Assembly: GCA_017617805.1 (NCBI GenBank)
Contig: JAFZVN010000033.1
Location: 1-43,748, forward strand
DNA: 43,748 bases
Direction of reading: 5' to 3'
Source of the DNA: Bacteroidaceae bacterium
GTDB lineage: Bacteria; Bacteroidota; Bacteroidia; Bacteroidales; Bacteroidaceae
Below the pieces are notes generated by a model. That model worked only from the letters and a program-made list of their open reading frames with translations, searched no databases and was not told where the DNA came from. A program made the position numbers and the translations under genes. Every line of letters starts with the position of its first letter. Position 1 is the first letter of the stretch. This document shows, piece after piece, positions 16,371 to 37,889 of the stretch.

Positions 16371-17897
16371 TTACTCCTCATTTTCAATAATATTGAGCAT
16401 TTTCACAGTGGCTTTGATGGCAGCTTCTGTCTGGTCAGCATCGAGCGCACGTGTACGATAAGTCTTTTCGTTGTATGTCCACGAGATGGTGGTTTGCACG
16501 AGGGCATCAGTACGTCCACCTGGTGGGATGCTGACCTGATAATTGGTGAGCCAAGGGAAGGTTCTGTTGAGTTTGTCCTTATAGATGTGGCGCACAGCAT
16601 GGATGAACGCATCATACATACCGTCACCCATAGCCGATTCCTCAAACACGTCGCCATTCACTTCGAGTTTCACCGATGCCATAGGCTTCAATCCATAAGC
16701 CGTAGAGACCATATAAGAAATGAGTTTCACCTTATCATCAGGCGCACTGTGTTTCAGCACATCTGCCACAATGTAAGGGAGGTCTTCCTGTGTGATGAGC
16801 TGCTTCTTGTCGCCCAATTCGATGATTCGGTCAGTCACACGGCGTGTCTGTTCAGGAGTGAGTTCAAGACCAAGCTCTTCGAGGTTCTTGAGGATATTCG
16901 CCTTGCCAGAGTTCTTGCCAAGGGCATACTCACGCTTCCTGCCAAATCGTTCAGGCAGGAGGTCGTTGCAGTAGAGGTTATTCTTGTTGTCGCCATCGGC
17001 ATGCACACCAGCCACCTGCGTGAAGACATTCTCACCAATGATGGGTTTGTTAGGTGGGATGGCGATGCCTGACAGACTTTCCACCATCGTGGAGACTGTA
17101 CCAAGATTTTCCTCATTGATATGAGTCAGCACATGGGCATGATCCTTCAGAATGGCCTGCACCGAAGAAAGTGGCGCATTGCCAGCACGTTCGCCAAGAC
17201 CGTTCACAGCCGTATGCACACCTCGGCAACCAACCATCACAGCAGCGAGCACATTGCTCGTGGCGAGGTCGTAGTCATTGTGGGCATGGAAATCGAAATG
17301 CAGGTCAGGATAGCAGGTCACCATCTGACTGACGAAGGCGGCTGTCAGTTGCGGATTGAGGATGCCCAAAGTGTCAGGCAACATGAAACGTTTCACGCCA
17401 CAATCCTTCAGGGCATCGATGAAGCCAAACACATAATTGGGGCTGTCCTTCATGCCGTTCGACCAGTCCTCCAGATAGAGATTGACACCGATACCCAACT
17501 GCTGAGCATAGGCGATGCTCTGACGGATGTCAGCCACATGCTCCTCAAGGGTTTTCTTCAACTGGAAACGGCAATGGCGTTCACTACCCTTACAGAGCAG
17601 GTTGATGTTGCGGCATTCGCAGTCGTTGATCCAGTCGAGCGAGGTCTTGCCATCGACGAAACCCAGCACCTCTACCCTATCCAGCATATCAGCCTGACGA
17701 GCCCATCGGCAGATGCTCTTCACAGCCTCCTTCTCGCCATCCGACACACGTGCTGAAGCCACTTCAATGCGATCCACATTCAAGTCCATCAGCAGCATGC
17801 GGGCTATCATCAGTTTCTCGTGGGGCACAAAACTCACGCTGTTGGTCTGTTCACCATCGCGCAACGTCGTGTCCATGATTTCTACATACTTTTCCAT
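16371..17897 (-). CDS. Alpha-isopropylmalate / (R)-citramalate synthase family protein (second LeuA-type enzyme)
   Basis: Condenses acetyl-CoA with a 2-oxoacid; 508 residues from ATG 17897. The TIM-barrel motifs are present: DTTLRDGEQ near the N terminus, FDFHAHNDYDLATSN for metal binding, and NGLGERAGN. The C-terminal regulatory LeuA dimer domain follows (SVKLEVNGDVFEESAMGDG...YQVSIPPGGRTDALVQT). It differs from the operon LeuA at 34355-35854 in the substrate-loop region (TNSVSFVPHEK in place of [11 protein letters not shown]). It may therefore be citramalate synthase (isoleucine) or a second isopropylmalate synthase; sequence reading alone cannot decide. The longer frame to 17948 starts upstream of the likely promoter box and is rejected. 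Confidence 0.88.
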   Translation of the reverse strand: MEKYVEIMDTTLRDGEQTNSVSFVPHEKLMIARMLLMDLNVDRIEVASARVSDGEKEAVKSICRWARQADMLDRVEVLGFVDGKTSLDWINDCECRNINLLCKGSERHCRFQLKKTLEEHVADIRQSIAYAQQLGIGVNLYLEDWSNGMKDSPNYVFGFIDALKDCGVKRFMLPDTLGILNPQLTAAFVSQMVTCYPDLHFDFHAHNDYDLATSNVLAAVMVGCRGVHTAVNGLGERAGNAPLSSVQAILKDHAHVLTHINEENLGTVSTMVESLSGIAIPPNKPIIGENVFTQVAGVHADGDNKNNLYCNDLLPERFGRKREYALGKNSGKANILKNLEELGLELTPEQTRRVTDRIIELGDKKQLITQEDLPYIVADVLKHSAPDDKVKLISYMVSTAYGLKPMASVKLEVNGDVFEESAMGDGMYDAFIHAVRHIYKDKLNRTFPWLTNYQVSIPPGGRTDALVQTTISWTYNEKTYRTRALDADQTEAAIKATVKMLNIIENEE

Positions 17898-31791: not shown

Positions 31792-32955
31792 TTATCCTTT
31801 CTGATTGTAATCAGCATTCAGTTGATTCATGGCGCTCAACAATTTGTGGTAATACACCAATGGCAGGAATCCAACACTGGAACCAAGAACATTCCAGAGC
31901 CAGAAGTCGGCAGAACCAAACGAATAAGGAATCCGACGGCGCATGAGTTCGTTGCCGATGCGGTTGCTCAAGCAGTGGAACCACACCAAATAGGCAATGC
32001 CACAAGTAAGCCAACCCCACAAGAAGAAAATCCAGCAATAGTGAGTGGTCTTGCGGCCATCATAGCGAGTCGCCACCGTATTGATTTCTGAAGAGATACG
32101 TGATAACACGACGATGCCATAGATGCCAAATGTGATCAGGCTGAGGAAGAAGAACTTGGCCAATCCACGATTGATAGGCAGCAACTTCTTCGGCACAAAT
32201 GGCTCACTCTCTTTGGCTGTCACCTCAATAGGAGCAACCTCCTCAGCAGGCTCTGGCTCTGGAGCAGCATCTGTGGCCTCAACATAAATCGTCTCCTCGG
32301 CCGGATGGTCTCCCTCCCCATTACGGGGGATGGCTGGGGAGAGGGTCTCCTCATACGCTTCAATCTTCTCCTTGTTTGAGAGGAGGAAATCGATATCGTC
32401 GTAGGCATTCATGAGGCAGTACTTCTTGTAGGAGTTGATGTCGAAGTGCTCCGAATGGCCTGTGGCGAGGTTGGTTACTGTCTGGTTGGGCACATCCACC
32501 TTCACCTCTGTCTGAGGATTAGCAGCGATACTATCGAACAACTCCTGCTGAAACTCCTTGCTGACGATGACTGGCAGCACGAAGCAGTTGAGGAGGTTGT
32601 TGCGATGGATATCGGCAAAGGAACTGGAAATGACGACACGAACGCCATAGCCAGCGATTGCCCATGCGGCATGTTCACGGCTGGAACCAGAACCCCAGTT
32701 CTGACCACCCACGATAATCTCATGCACACCCTTGCGAGGTGCTTCTGCATACTCAGGCTGATTCATCACGAAGTCTGCCACAGGATTGCCCTCTGCATCG
32801 AAACGGAGGTCGTGCATAAAGGCATCACCAAAGAACTTGGGGTCACGAGTTGTGCTGGCCAAGTAACGGGCAGGAATGATGAGGTCGGTATTGCAATTGT
32901 CAATCTGAATAGGAATGCAGGTTGACTGGATGATATCAAATTTCTCTTTAGCCAT
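31792..32955 (-). CDS. leuD: 3-isopropylmalate dehydratase small subunit fused to a DUF4234 membrane domain
   Basis: 387 residues in two unrelated parts. Residues 1-202 are LeuD, the small subunit that works with LeuC in leucine synthesis: IPIQIDNCNTDLIIPARYL, GGQNWGSGSSREHAAWA and YKKYCLMNAYDDIDFLL are typical, and a normal LeuD would end about here. Residues about 203-217 (ETLSPAIPRNGEG) are translated from a dispersed repeat. An acidic Pro/Glu-rich linker follows. Residues about 255-385 form a DUF4234-like membrane domain (FFFLSLITFGIYGIVVLSRI, HYCWIFFLWGWLTCGIAYLV, FGSADFWLWNVLGSSVGFLP). The frame is unbroken. Fusion of a cytosolic Fe-S enzyme subunit to membrane helices is odd; leuC-leuD order and 4-bp spacing are normal. 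No leuB follows. Confidence 0.9.
   Translation of the reverse strand: MAKEKFDIIQSTCIPIQIDNCNTDLIIPARYLASTTRDPKFFGDAFMHDLRFDAEGNPVADFVMNQPEYAEAPRKGVHEIIVGGQNWGSGSSREHAAWAIAGYGVRVVISSSFADIHRNNLLNCFVLPVIVSKEFQQELFDSIAANPQTEVKVDVPNQTVTNLATGHSEHFDINSYKKYCLMNAYDDIDFLLSNKEKIEAYEETLSPAIPRNGEGDHPAEETIYVEATDAAPEPEPAEEVAPIEVTAKESEPFVPKKLLPINRGLAKFFFLSLITFGIYGIVVLSRISSEINTVATRYDGRKTTHYCWIFFLWGWLTCGIAYLVWFHCLSNRIGNELMRRRIPYSFGSADFWLWNVLGSSVGFLPLVYYHKLLSAMNQLNADYNQKG
32309..32350 (-). repeat. CTCCCTCCCCATTACGGGGG-type repeat at the LeuD-DUF4234 joint
   Basis: A dispersed element of about 40 bp with complementary arms (CTCCCTCCCC and GGGGAGAGGG around ATTACGGGGGATGGCT). It matches 36825-36864 inside the GH30 gene in almost all positions and in the same orientation to the gene, coding TLSPxxPRNGEG in both. 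Confidence 0.85.
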
Positions 32956-32959
32956 AATC

Positions 32960-34351
32960 TTACATCTTTCTTGGGTCAGTTACTACTCCTGTAATTGCTG
33001 ATGCTGCCACAACGAGAGGCGAAGCAAGGATGGTGCGAGCACCAGGACCTTGACGACCTACAAAGTTGCGGTTGCTGGTAGAGATGGAGAGTTTGCCTGC
33101 AGGCACCTTATCAGGATTCATGGCGAGGCATGAAGAGCAAGAAGGAAGACGGAGTTCGAAGCCAGCCTCTTCCAGAATCTTGTCAATACCCTCGTCGATG
33201 ATTTGCTGACGCACGAGCCATGAACCAGGCACGAGCCAAGCCACCACATTGTCAGCCTTCTTCTTACCCTTCACCACAGAAGCGAAAGCACGGAAGTCTT
33301 CGATGCGGCCATTGGTGCAAGCGCCGAGGAAGCAATAATCCACAGGCACTCCTTCGAGTTTCTGACCTGGTTTGAACTGCATGTATTCGAGCATGCTGAG
33401 GAACTGAACGCGGTCAGCCTCTGGTATCTCATCGAGCGTAGGAATAGCCTCATCGATAGCAATACCAGCACCAGGATTGGTTCCGTAGGTAATGCGTGGC
33501 GCGATGTTTTCAGCGCGATAAGTCACCTCCTTGTCGAACACGGCATCCTCGTCAGAGTAGAGTTTCCTCCACTCTGCCACAGCCTTGTCCCACTCTTCAC
33601 CCTTGGGGGCATACTCACGACCTTTCAGATAAGCGAAAGTGGTCTCATCAGGAGCAATCAGACCCGCACGTGAACCCATCTCGATGGAGAGGTTGGAAAG
33701 GGTCAGACGTCCCTCCATGCTCATGTTGCGAACGGCCGAACCAGCATATTCCACAGCATAACCCGTCGCACCAGAAGTGGTCATCTGTGCCATGATGTAG
33801 AGTGCCACATCCTTGGCGGTCGTACCCTCTGGCAAAGTACCTTCGATGTTGATGCGCATGGTCTTGGGCTTGCTCTGCAAGATGCACTGAGAAGCCAACA
33901 CCTGTGCCACCTCACTCGTACCGATACCCATCGCGATGGCACCTACAGCACCATGCGTAGAGGTGTGGGAATCGCCACAAACGATGGTCATACCAGGCAA
34001 TGAAAGTGCCTTTTCTGGTCCTACCACATGGATGATACCATTATCCTTCGTACCCATCGCAAAGTGCTTGATGCCAAACTCTTCGCAATTAGCTTTCAGG
34101 GTTTCCACCTGCTTACGACCTACAGGGTCATTGATGACTTCCTGCTGGTCGGAAGGGGTATTGTGGTCTGGCATTGCCACCACATGATCAGGTCTGAACA
34201 CCTTGATGTTCTTGTCTCTCAACGTATCGAACGCCTGCGGACTCGTCACCTCGTGCGCATACAAGCGGTCGATATACAATTGTGTGGGACCATCCTCCAC
34301 GTTCTGCACCACGTGGGCATCCCATATTTTATCAAATAATGTCTTTCCCAT
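32960..34351 (-). CDS. leuC: 3-isopropylmalate dehydratase large subunit
   Basis: Aconitase-family subunit carrying the [4Fe-4S] cluster for isomerising 2- to 3-isopropylmalate. 463 residues, normal length. [15 protein letters not shown] and the stretch with [24 protein letters not shown] are the LeuC hallmarks. The cluster cysteines are in [13 protein letters not shown] and [12 protein letters not shown]. The C-terminal segment with [22 protein letters not shown] is complete. It lies 3 bp after leuA and 4 bp before leuD. Confidence 0.97.
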
Positions 34352-34354
34352 TGC

Positions 34355-35854
34355 TTAGTCTCTGAATTTATTGATACAGTCAATATATGCTTCGACGGAG
34401 GCAGTGACGATGTCGGTGTTGGCACCAAAACCATAGTAGAGGTGACCATTGTATTCCACCTGCATGTGTACCTTACCCATATCGTCAGAACCTTTCGAGA
34501 TGGCCTGAATGGTGAACTCTTTGAGGGTCATCTTGCGCTTGATGATGCACTTCAACGCATTGATGGCAGCATCGACAGGACCATTACCAGATGCAGCAGC
34601 CTCGAAATGTTCGTTAGCTACCTGCAAACCGATGGAAGCCACAGAACGAACACCCTTACCCGTAGTCACCTGCAAGTAATCCAGTTTCACATTGTGCGTA
34701 GCACTACGCTCTGCACCTGCCAACACGAGGATGTCATCATCTGTCACTTCCTTCTTCTTGTCGGCGAGTTTCAGGAAATCCTCATAAATCTTGTCAAGTT
34801 TCTCACCTTCGACTTCCACACCATTCACGTGCAGACGATGTTTCAGAGCAGCACGACCGCTTCGAGCTGTCAGCACGATGGCATTGTCATCGATACCCAC
34901 ATCCTTAGGATCCATGATTTCGTAAGTCGATGCGTTCTTCAGCACACCATCCTGATGGATGCCGCTCGAATGAGCAAATGCATTCTTACCCACAATGGCC
35001 TTGTTAGGCTGCACAGGCATATTCATCAGGCTTGACACCATACGGCTCGTTGGATAAATCTTCGTCGTATTGATGTTCGTCTCGATGCCAAGGTCTGGAT
35101 GGGTCTTAAAAATCATTGCCACCTCTTCGAGAGATGTGTTACCGGCACGCTCACCGATACCATTGATGGTCACCTCCACCTGACGCGCACCAGCCAAAAC
35201 GCCAGCCACCGTGTTGGCAGTCGCCATACCGAGATCGTTGTGACAGTGGGTGGAGAGGATGGACTTGCCAGCCGCAAAAGCATCCACATGCTCATAAAGA
35301 TACTTTATTTTCTCGTGATACTCGTTGGGCACACGGAAACCCGTCGTGTCAGGAATGTTACAAACCGTTGCACCAGCCTTGGTCACAGCGTCAATCACAC
35401 GAGCCAGATACTCGTTGTCTGTGCGACCTGCATCCTCTGCATAAAACTCCACATCCTCCACATACCTCTTGGCATACTTCACGGCAGCCACAGCACGCTC
35501 GATGATTTCTTCTGGAGTCGAGTTGAACTTGTACTTGATGTGTGAAGGCGAAGTGCCAATACCTGTGTGGATGCGCTTGTGCTTGGCATACTGAAGCGCC
35601 TCAGCAGCCACATCGATGTCCTTTTCCACCGCACGTGTCAACGCACAGATGGTAGGCCAAGTGACCGCTTTTGAGATTTCTACCACACTGTTGAAATCGC
35701 CTGGGCTGGAGATGGGGAAACCAGCCTCGATGACATCCACGCCCAACGCCTCCAACTGCTTGGCCACCTGAATCTTCTCAACCGTGTTGAGCTGACATCC
35801 AGGCACCTGCTCGCCATCGCGCAGCGTCGTGTCAAAAATAAATAATCTGTCCAT
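34355..35854 (-). CDS. leuA: 2-isopropylmalate synthase
   Basis: First committed enzyme of leucine synthesis, joining acetyl-CoA and 2-oxoisovalerate. 499 residues. The N-terminal barrel has [16 protein letters not shown], the metal-binding [14 protein letters not shown] and NGIGERAGN. The C-terminal regulatory domain (about 385-499, with [18 protein letters not shown]), where leucine feedback normally binds, is present. First structural gene of the leu operon, preceded by an apparent attenuator leader. A paralogue lies at 16371-17897. Confidence 0.96.
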
Positions 35855-35908
35855 ATTGTTATGAATTTTTATATCTCACCACCATGAGGCACAAGCACAA
35901 GCCTATAT

Positions 35909-35944
35909 AAAAGTAAAACCTTCCCCACAGCAGTGAGAAAGGTT
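35909..35944 (-). terminator. Attenuator terminator hairpin of the leu operon leader
   Basis: On the minus strand AACCTTTCTCAC (35944-35933) pairs with GTGGGGAAGGTT (35928-35917) around the tetraloop TGCT. This gives 12 bp including two G-T pairs. TTTTACTTTT overlaps and follows. It lies 20 bases after the leader-peptide stop and 55 bases before the leuA start. Confidence 0.85.
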
Positions 35945-35963
35945 AAACATTTGCTTTATATCG

Positions 35964-36062
35964 TTATGCACATAGGCACACACGCACCTCTCTCACCTCC
36001 GACTCCGTAAGTCGTAGTGCCAAAAGGTTAAGTCGCAATGTGTTGCTATAAGTTGCCATCAT
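35964..36062 (-). CDS. Leucine-rich leader peptide of the leu operon
   Basis: A 32-codon frame beginning with two ATG codons (36062 and 36059), about 10 bases after the predicted transcription start, ending at TAA 35966-35964. It has seven leucines. Six lie within codons 9-18 (LRLNLLALRL), using TTG, CTT and CTA codons, and one is at codon 30; valines are at 23, 26 and 28. This is the classic make-up of an amino-acid biosynthetic leader peptide. Its later codons contain GTGAGAGAGGT (35996-35986), which can pair with the 5' arm of the terminator hairpin. No automatic gene finder would call it at this length. Confidence 0.8.
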   Translation of the reverse strand: MMATYSNTLRLNLLALRLTESEVREVRVCLCA

Positions 36063-36078
36063 CTTGAAATTTCGGATG

Positions 36079-36110
36079 CAAAGGTACAATTTTCTATCCA
36101 AACCACCAAA
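36079..36110 (-). promoter_or_regulatory. Promoter of the leu operon
   Basis: Minus strand: TTTG (36110-36107), 20 bp spacer, TACCTTTG (36086-36079). Both match the Bacteroidota consensus. The start of transcription would be near 36072. It sits only 17 bp downstream of the GH30 stop, with no terminator seen between. Confidence 0.85.
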
Positions 36111-36126
36111 AAAAACGTGAAAAAAC

Positions 36127-37830
36127 TCAATTCTCGACTACAAAAGTGGTGACGGAACGGGCAGGCAGGGTTGTGTTGCGCAGATCCACCTTGCCAATGT
36201 TCTTTAGGCTCTCGCCTTCCACGTCGGAAGTGCGGTAGGCGGTGATAGTTGATAATTGATAGTTGACAGTTGATAGTTGGGACAGGTCGATGCTGACAGG
36301 GCGGTCTTCCTTGCTGTAGTTGATGGCAACGATAGCAAGTGTGCCGTCTGTATTCTGATAGGCAGAGAGCATCAGACCATCGATTTCCATATCGCCTTCC
36401 ATATCGAGACGAACAGCTCCAGGACGGACAAAGCGAGAGAAGTTTCCCATTGTCCACATCAGTTTGGAGTCACGAACCATGTTGGCCTGAACCATTCCAC
36501 GACCTTGACCACGTCCTCCTCCTGAGCGTTCGCCTTTCACATACATACGGATAAGTCCATCCTTGTAGTTGCCACCAGCGGCTCGCCACCACTGCCACGA
36601 ACGGGCATTGGCAACAGTCAAGTCGTAGTGCATCACACGAGCCACATAAAGGGCTTCTTCCATCGAGAAATCGAAACCACCACCTCCATGAATCTCCTCA
36701 TCATTCGACATGATGCAGAGTTCGGTCATCCAGAAGCCAAGACCCTCTCTGTCCTCTCGGACATCTCCCCCATGAAGGGGAGAACCATTCGGGATGTTTG
36801 TCTTTTGGGAACTCTCCGCATGGGCTCCCTCCCCATTACGGGGGAGGGTTGGGGAGAGGGTCTCTATCGCTTCTTTCAACCGTTTGCGATAGCCATACAA
36901 TCCAACACGCTCATAGTTGCGCTCCCCTGGACGAAGGATAGGTGTGTTCGTCCAATAGGAATGACCAGCCATCACACGAGCGATGCTGGGGAGGTTGCCC
37001 ACGTAGGTATCAGTGGAATCGGGATTCCAAAAAGCTTGGATTTCATAACCACGCTGCCAATCGGTCTCATGGGTGGCATACATGCAACGGAAATCGCTCG
37101 ATTCATTGATCAGAATCTTCGTAGTGATGCCACGCTGCTGGAACACGCGATTCATCTCACGGGCAATATGTGCAATCTCCCGATTGGTGGCAGGACTTCC
37201 CTCTTGCTTGGGGCCAAGCCAGTTCCAATGTCCATCAGGTTCGTTCACTGGACACACATAGTCGAAATGGATGCCATCCTCACGCTCTGCCGCTTGGAGC
37301 ATGTCAGCGATGTAGGCAGCAAAATCATCATAGGCATCAGCTTTCAAATTGAAAGTGCCACCACGTCCTGTATTGGTAGCCAAGCCGTTCTGAGTCAGAT
37401 GGATGGGAGGAGAATTGTAGAACGCCAAGAAGGTAGGCACACCACGTTCCTTCGCCAATTTCAAGAACCGACGTTGCCCTGTCTGCTTCTCAAAATACTC
37501 TGTACGCGTGTCATGATTGATTTGAGCCGAATCACCCTGCGTGGCACTGCCTGCACCAGCATTGAATCGCCAGATGCTCAGACCAATCCCCTTCGGGGAA
37601 CCATCAGCGAAAGTCTCAGAAGAGAAGAGCCAGTCAGCCACTTGCTGCTGAAGGGAATCTTCCCATTCTCCAATGCGCCACATGCTCCACGCATCGCTGG
37701 CACCAAAGCCATCGATGGTCTGCTGCTGGTGGTTGGTCACGCTGAATTGGGTCACTTGCTGTGCCTTCACTTGTCCTGTCATACAGCACAAGAGAGCACT
37801 TATCAGAAATATGTTAGTAAAGTTGTTCAT
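36127..37830 (-). CDS. Secreted glycoside hydrolase family 30-like enzyme, carrying repeat-derived segments
   Basis: 567 residues. The signal peptide is about 1-23 (ending VKA-QQ). GH30-like motifs: TIDGFGASDAWSM (38-50), VCPVNEPDGHW with probable acid/base Glu197, and GFWMTELCIM with probable nucleophile Glu370. The C-terminal beta domain has the usual GTLAIVAINYSKED. Between barrel strands, residues about 323-363 (ETLSPTLPRNGEG, then PLHGGDVREDREG) are translated from dispersed repeats. So are residues about 516-530 (QLSTVNYQLST) in the beta domain. Substrate is unknown; relatives act on beta-1,6-galactan, beta-1,6-glucan or xylan. ATG 37830 is chosen because the predicted transcript starts near 37851, excluding the start at 37860. 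Confidence 0.83.
   Translation of the reverse strand: MNNFTNIFLISALLCCMTGQVKAQQVTQFSVTNHQQQTIDGFGASDAWSMWRIGEWEDSLQQQVADWLFSSETFADGSPKGIGLSIWRFNAGAGSATQGDSAQINHDTRTEYFEKQTGQRRFLKLAKERGVPTFLAFYNSPPIHLTQNGLATNTGRGGTFNLKADAYDDFAAYIADMLQAAEREDGIHFDYVCPVNEPDGHWNWLGPKQEGSPATNREIAHIAREMNRVFQQRGITTKILINESSDFRCMYATHETDWQRGYEIQAFWNPDSTDTYVGNLPSIARVMAGHSYWTNTPILRPGERNYERVGLYGYRKRLKEAIETLSPTLPRNGEGAHAESSQKTNIPNGSPLHGGDVREDREGLGFWMTELCIMSNDEEIHGGGGFDFSMEEALYVARVMHYDLTVANARSWQWWRAAGGNYKDGLIRMYVKGERSGGGRGQGRGMVQANMVRDSKLMWTMGNFSRFVRPGAVRLDMEGDMEIDGLMLSAYQNTDGTLAIVAINYSKEDRPVSIDLSQLSTVNYQLSTITAYRTSDVEGESLKNIGKVDLRNTTLPARSVTTFVVEN
36243..36281 (-). repeat. GTTGATAGTTGACAGT-type repeat inside the GH30 gene
   Basis: Plus-strand words TGATAGTTGATAATTGATAG and TTGACAGTTGATAGTTGGG. 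Read on the gene strand it is the same GTCAACTATCAA family as the atpF-atpH junction, here encoding QLSTVNYQLST in frame. Confidence 0.85.
36742..36864 (-). repeat. Two dispersed G/C-rich repeats inside the GH30 gene
   Basis: 36825-36864 is the CTCCCTCCCCATTACGGGGG element also found at the LeuD-DUF4234 joint. 36742-36786 is a second element with CTCTCGGACATCTCCCCCAT followed by GAAGGGGAGAA, whose C- and G-runs can pair. About 40 bases separate them. All are in frame. Confidence 0.75.
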
Positions 37831-37857
37831 GTCATGTGTTGTGTTGGTTGAACGGTA

Positions 37858-37889
37858 CAAATGTAAACAAAAGATTGTTCACGCCCAAG
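37858..37889 (-). promoter_or_regulatory. Promoter of the GH30 gene
   Basis: Minus strand: CTTG (37889-37886), 20 bp spacer, TACATTTG (37865-37858). It is back-to-back with the promoter of the activase gene on the plus strand. Confidence 0.7.

Follow-up and report, generated by a model that had tools for sequence, protein, structure and literature searches.

In enterobacteria, attenuation by leader peptides is a classic mode of control for leu and ilv genes, and in the ilvGMEDA attenuator of E. coli the leader reads Ile, Val, and Leu before branched-chain genes. The E. coli leuL-leuABCD attenuator (NC_000913) has a 28-codon leader that includes four Leu codons in a row, and a Rho-independent terminator follows ahead of leuA. 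The region before leuA in the stretch of DNA analyzed here (43,748 nt, below called the window) is built in a similar way, but has its antiterminator arm within the leader ORF and uses mixed Leu codons for control. Compared with ilvGMEDA, whose reading of Ile, Val, and Leu recurs in the ilvD leaders of Bacteroidales, both the operon and the sequence are different, and the leu operons of Bacteroidales carry a two-amino-acid form, Ile plus Leu, tied to cimA.

Leader-peptide systems had been shown only in Proteobacteria and Actinobacteria according to Naville and Gautheret (2010), who themselves added Firmicutes (PMC2965389). Since Rfam holds a Bacteroidete tryptophan peptide leader, RF01692 (Bacteroid-trp), which appears in Weinberg (2010) (PMC2864571), the mechanism is not new to Bacteroidota; RF01692 is a leader-peptide RNA from the same phylum, but it has Trp codons and belongs to the trp operon. 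For Flavobacterium psychrophilum, "strong clues" that amino-acid operons are preceded by leader-peptide attenuators have been reported, with no leu operon, codons, or structures named in the relevant part of that paper (PMC9723704), and for B. thetaiotaomicron leader-like small ORFs have been noted, again with no leu or ilv operon named in the corresponding part (PMC7366714). An earlier, sequence-only reading of this DNA had called such attenuation little described in Bacteroidota, which is fair, but "undescribed" would go too far, given RF01692 and the F. psychrophilum report. We found no description of the leu/ilv leader family in an open-licence library of papers; subscription papers may treat Bacteroidetes.

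Organization and conservation of the leuA leader

The leu operon of the window consists of leuACD only, and its leader is of the Leu-only form (Table 1). The elements listed by the sequence-only reading, that is, a promoter, six Leu codons within codons 9–18 (numbered from the first ATG), a 12-bp terminator hairpin with a T-rich tail before leuA, and a segment complementary to the terminator 5′ arm, were all found at the positions given for them. The antiterminator 5′ arm pairs with nucleotides 35943–35933 over 11 bp with one G–T pair, and the terminator 5′ arm (35943–35933) thus doubles as the antiterminator 3′ arm; the distance from the last Leu codon (36011–36009) to the antiterminator arm, estimated as about 13 bases, is 12 nt, and the gap between the hairpin and leuA is 62 nt. 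The leader frame, taken to have 32 codons, is indeed present from the ATG at 36062, but of the two in-frame ATGs it is the second one (36059) that is the conserved start among the genus relatives compared, leaving 31 codons.

Table 1. Positions of the leader elements and of the operon and neighboring genes in the window
Feature	Position	Strand	Remarks
GH30-type glycoside hydrolase	36127–37860		upstream of the leader
TTTG, −33 element	36110–36107	minus	20 nt upstream of −7 box; read in sequence
−7 box	36086–36079	minus	TACCTTTG (TAnnTTTG); read in sequence
Leader ORF	36062–35964	minus	MATYSNTLRLNLLALRLTESEVREVRVCLCA; TAA stop 35966–35964
Control region	36038–36009	minus	six Leu codons (TTG, CTT, CTT, TTG, CTA, CTT)
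Possible 1:2 hairpin	36014–36000	minus	CGACTTACGGAGTCG; −4.5 kcal/mol; overlaps last control codons
Antiterminator 5′ arm	35996–35986	minus	GTGAGAGAGGT; inside leader ORF
Terminator hairpin	35944–35917	minus	12 bp: 35944–35933 with 35928–35917, two G–U pairs
T-rich tract	35916–35909	minus	TTACTTTT; directly after terminator
leuA, 2-isopropylmalate synthase	34355–35854	minus	NCBIfam TIGR00973 and NF002086, above cut-off
leuC	32960–34351	minus	TIGR00170, above cut-off
leuD, C-terminal DUF4234 fusion	31792–32955	minus	TIGR00171, above cut-off; PF14018
cimA-like citramalate synthase	16371–17897	minus	best model NF042433 (CimA)

The promoter is of the Bacteroidota type, for which a consensus spacing of the −33 and −7 elements is known. 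A −7 box lies at most 70 nt upstream in 95 out of 103 leu/ilv leaders, compared with 5.7 expected from shuffles, and in 91 out of the 103 (those with at least 60 nt upstream) it is preceded by TTG at a distance of 17–23 nt. The window terminator scores 26, whereas all terminators in 3000 dinucleotide shuffles of the 246-nt region stayed below 24; the leader folds with z = −2.6 relative to shuffles, two out of 200 being as good.

For comparison with relatives, GTDB genomes were searched with the window LeuA and the best 80 of 592 relatives were retained. Judged by eye, leuA is preceded by a similar arrangement in 43 of these best 80, and these 43 loci and the window form alignment A1. In loci of the same genus (L083–L104), the arrangement is seen in 20 out of 22, the exceptions being L084 (disrupted) and L093 (none). 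Among the 17 genus leaders of 31 codons, codons 12, 15, and 17 (counted from the second ATG) encode Leu in all 17, with three different Leu codons used at codon 15, and codons 10 and 13 encode Leu in 15, with five and four different Leu codons, respectively; over codons 2–18 of these leaders of equal length dN/dS = 0.34. As read from the aligned sequences, selection is preserving the amino acids of the predicted leader peptide, beyond the RNA alone.

In L003 and L084, the leu terminator is retained but is separated from leuA by about 280 nt containing other sequence, and the leader frame is lost; these loci apparently represent a broken attenuator.

It is very unlikely that the hairpin is a constitutive terminator of the hydrolase gene next to a chance ORF, with the leuA promoter elsewhere, downstream. 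Such a hairpin with its T tract would stop read-through from 36127, and L011 and L013 do have a promoter-like box immediately before leuA without a leader; however, the window promoter sits between the hydrolase gene and the hairpin, the leader frame, Leu codons, and antiterminator are jointly conserved in many lineages, and shuffles never come near the strength of the terminator. A chance ORF with a plain terminator was rejected on the basis of the conservation and the shuffles.

Covariation, ribosome geometry, and folding

Structural comparison across loci relied on a loose detector, which demands a frame ending near the terminator and flagged 120 out of 183 regions; because 16 flagged regions were judged by eye to be chance hits, this raw count was not used. 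After removal of these 16, of 15 duplicates, of four candidates with uncertain arms (L010, L112, L122, and L165), and of L102, dropped for no good reason, 84 core sequences remained in alignment A2. Loci missed by the detector were added by eye, L045, L056, L144, and L149 to the table of leader codons and L123, L138, and L143 later.

In A2, both sides change in 12 out of 13 aligned pairs of the terminator; double-change cells number 89 against 23 in shuffled alignments, and none of 500 shuffles was as high on any of five scores. The antiterminator cells are paired in 83.7% of cases, compared with 44–56% on sliding by 1–3 columns, and 21 of them are double-change cells against 5.4 in shuffles, these counts being favored by the preselection of A2 rows for complementary arms. 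For the antiterminator, one of the five measures gives no excess over shuffles: double changes occur in five pairs, and 73 out of 500 shuffles are as high. The arms co-vary, the majority of leaders having the GTGAGAAAGG/CCTTTCTCAC types, and a second group having GAGAATGG/CCATTCTC (e.g., L140, L150, L153, L160, L164). As to the possible 1:2 hairpin, folding of this region is better than the average for shuffles of the same leader in 28 out of 40 CGACT-type leaders.

If the ribosome footprint is taken as 12 nt, the antiterminator arm would be covered by a ribosome at the stop codon in 79 out of 79 leaders measured, and all 79 have at least three Ile/Leu codons so far upstream that a ribosome stalled on them would leave the arm free; the arms measured were those picked by the detector, so that this result is partly built in. 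The alignment of leaders suggested by the sequence-only reading bore it out, with Leu codons retained under synonymous change and both hairpins covarying, and the attenuation logic borrowed from proteobacterial operons is supported by conservation, covariation, and, with the above qualification, geometry.

An alternative in which the ORF is incidental and the leader RNA works as a riboswitch or T-box, or is bound by a protein, is slightly less probable than the constitutive terminator. A conserved RNA structure alone would fit the observed pair changes, but no Rfam family reaches the gathering score on the element, Leu codons are preserved via synonymous change, and the leader amino acids vary with operon content and differ among leu, ilv, trp, and pheA operons. 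At the gathering threshold, Rfam identifies only two tRNAs in the whole window, and at E up to 10 the region 35850–36120 yields five sub-threshold matches, none to a T-box or riboswitch; an Rfam riboswitch or T-box was rejected for lack of a match. Neither RF01692 nor the proteobacterial Leu leader of Rfam (RF00512) matches in the window, or at E up to 10 in 35850–36120, and RF01692 also has no match to L127 and L196 (leu and ilv loci). Equally improbable is that the ORF encodes a small protein that works in trans and that the hairpins add a further layer of control, since, despite the known action in trans of a leader peptide, peTrpL of Sinorhizobium meliloti (PMC7298713), the families share mainly Leu/Ile content and other residues vary widely.

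A predicted Leu-rich frame, a Rho-independent terminator before leuA, a mutually exclusive antiterminator, and the corresponding ribosome geometry were all found in the window, and its leader is very probably a ribosome-mediated transcription attenuator of leuACD. RNA polymerase probably starts 10–15 nt before the 31-codon leader frame. If charged Leu-tRNA were scarce, the ribosome would wait at one of the six Leu codons, leaving the arm 35996–35986 free to pair with 35943–35933 as the latter is transcribed; the antiterminator formed in this way would block the terminator, and leuACD would be transcribed. With Leu plentiful, the ribosome would enter the arm, the terminator would form, and transcription would end near 35909. 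In this scheme, we infer the transcription start, stalling, termination, and Leu-tRNA charging as the signal from the leader sequence.

The leader was also folded by ribosome position. In the nascent RNA, extending to the terminator 5′ arm, all 11 antiterminator pairs are predicted as long as the ribosome has moved no further than ACG (36008); some of these pairs are lost at each of the two codons after it, and none are left from GAG (35999) onward. For the completed leader at equilibrium, the terminator is the preferred fold wherever the ribosome is placed. The E. coli leu leader, folded as a control, behaves in the same way at the positions listed, with the terminator at all 10 of these, out of 29 codon positions. 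Given this preference of the finished RNA, the switch, if it operates, must do so kinetically, by the order of synthesis. The nascent window RNA already has the antiterminator when folded without a ribosome; both fold results count against the proposed switch, whose outcome would depend on timing.

Leader codons and operon content

In this order, the leu operon commonly reads leuA-leuC-leuD-cimA-leuB, and its LeuCD and LeuB products would be shared by Leu synthesis and by the citramalate pathway to Ile. Its LeuA-like gene, denoted here cimA, resembles the window gene at 16371–17897, for which CimA is the best model, though below the cut-off (606 bits to NF042433 with a cut-off of 950, the next-best model having 348). 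The window gene lies about 14 kb downstream of leuACD, with a promoter-like box (17928–17921) 23 nt before its ATG and no attenuator or leader in the upstream sequence read.

We tabulated leader codons for 83 loci, of which 58 have cimA in the operon, 22 lack it there, and three are unclear because of contig ends; starts and frames were chosen by eye for Leu/Ile content (for ilv leaders, also Val), which favors those residues. Leaders with cimA in the operon have on average 4.4 Ile and 4.6 Leu codons, and 57 out of 58 contain at least three Ile, the lone exception (L061) having two. Leaders without cimA have on average 1.1 Ile and 5.8 Leu, and at least three Ile are found in two out of 22, both from family f5 (L170 and L171), which lack cimA in the stretch, contradict the rule, and were retained in the table, as was the weak case L165. 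A Mann–Whitney test on the Ile share, which ignores kinship, gave p = 5e-10.

Re-checking of contigs for five loci without cimA (L010, L014, L034, L042, and L044) showed that leuA stands alone in L014 and confirmed that cimA does not follow in the operon in L034, L042, and L044, whose leaders are dominated by Leu; the assignment of L180 to this class is judged on 1.6 kb after leuD. Just 13 members of the window's genus or its near kin entered the table, and further leaders of the genus outside it (e.g., L005–L009, L096, L102) have 0–2 Ile in the conserved frame. Three more loci, seen later, also stand outside the table, L138 with a Leu-rich leader at a contig end, and L123 and L143 with Ile-rich leaders and cimA.

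On a LeuA tree constructed by a quick method, both traits change eight times. Of five independent pairs on well-supported branches, the traits go in the same direction in 4.5 on average and in opposite directions in none (median p 0.125), so that independent events are still few; with all branches used there are eight independent pairs. The clearest case is one genome (G304) that has the operon split: leuA alone is preceded by leader MANFANIAFLNLLVLRLTKSQVRRVCRY (Leu), and leuC-leuD-cimA, on another contig, has its own attenuator behind the Ile-rich MTMYSTIINSIIILSLRISCSE, detected by R1, a covariance model of the attenuator core, at E 4e-6 in the 28.6 kb searched.

The reading of the window element as a leucine-operon attenuator holds for the window itself, whose leader is the Leu-only form, but in the order Ile-plus-Leu leaders predominate, and, as far as predicted frames tell, this commoner form of the family is the one found where cimA is in the operon, the Leu-only form going with cimA outside it. 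A leucine-only reading of the whole family is ruled out by the Ile runs in leaders.

The order-level sample included 157 other Bacteroidales genomes, 62 of them with LeuA at E < 1e-150. The attenuator is present at leuA in 38 out of these 62 loci (35 in the codon table, including one weak, and three by eye), ilvC is immediately upstream of leuA in eight, and neither is seen in 16; L151, with an Ile/Leu frame and no clear arms, was scored as lacking the attenuator. No such leader was seen at nine leuA loci outside the order (L183–L191).

Putative attenuators of ilvD and other operons

In the window's own, incomplete genome, the window element is the only strong R1 match (E 5e-13, the next being 0.1), and many second matches occur across 99 genomes of the order. 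We examined 35 stretches around further matches, one of them the weak match in the window genome; match L208, whose downstream gene was only partly available, was excluded from all counts. In 20 out of 35 stretches, from 20 genomes, the first gene encodes IlvD, with 68–100% identity to the one tested with NCBIfam, and the leaders read Val, Ile, and Leu, e.g., MNNVLHIILVVVLLVISR. In whole peptides, at least two Val are found in 18 out of 20 ilvD leaders (fewer in the other two), compared with 15 out of 58 leu leaders with cimA, and Val-Val occurs in 16 out of 20 ilvD leaders, compared with five out of 80 leu leaders. The remaining 15 stretches include one before trpB, one before a prephenate dehydratase gene, two before gltB, and one before the partly available gene; in the other ten, there is no leader that we could recognize.

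Taken together, we consider it probable that these leaders constitute an undescribed attenuator family of Bacteroidales, whose codons have been retuned in evolution to the operon, with Ile retained where cimA is in the leu operon and lost where cimA leaves it, separate leaders for the halves of a split operon, and Val before ilvD. The retuning of codons with operon content is the part that specialists should find new. If true, the leader is a readable record of operon function and of the amino acid sensed, and the match of codons and operons provides natural experiments on sensor rewiring. A conserved branched-chain family in Bacteroidales, which are major gut and rumen bacteria, would offer a testable account of how Leu, Ile, and Val synthesis is tuned; moreover, an Ile-rich leader supports the reading of the second LeuA-like gene as citramalate synthase and may help its annotation.

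In eight loci (L139, L157, L161, L166, L168, L169, L172, and L173), leuA directly follows ilvC, and three genomes of this kind (G061, G123, and G055) have an R1 match before ilvD, so that one attenuator may serve the merged ilv-leu operon.

No leader frame was seen at 11 ilvD loci read in the window's genus, including the window genome, whereas a short hairpin after the promoter is kept in at least five of them (L232, L235–L237, and L240, from the window genome and the genus, where the promoter is directly followed by a short hairpin and a T-rich stretch). In this genus, decay of the ilv attenuator thus seems likely.

The stretch before trpB (L218) has a leader MNFLLTNTFWWWHSQLKKS with WWW and matches RF01692 with 49.7 bits at a threshold of 49. 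The prephenate dehydratase gene (L226, G028:C139:3747–3844) follows a terminator and a leader rich in Phe and Tyr, MRKFLFTYTNFYYFWFFKQKRGLYV, which likely form an aromatic attenuator. Upstream of gltB, encoding the glutamate synthase large subunit, L206 and L212, from two families, have similar terminator and antiterminator arms, with short frames of unclear codon meaning and some His codons. Finally, the linker between leuD and DUF4234 in the window (31792–32955, minus strand) contains LSPAIPRNGEG, with a near copy, LSPTLPRNGEG, inside the hydrolase encoded at 36127–37860; the two copies suggest that a short repeat is spreading and is read in frame.
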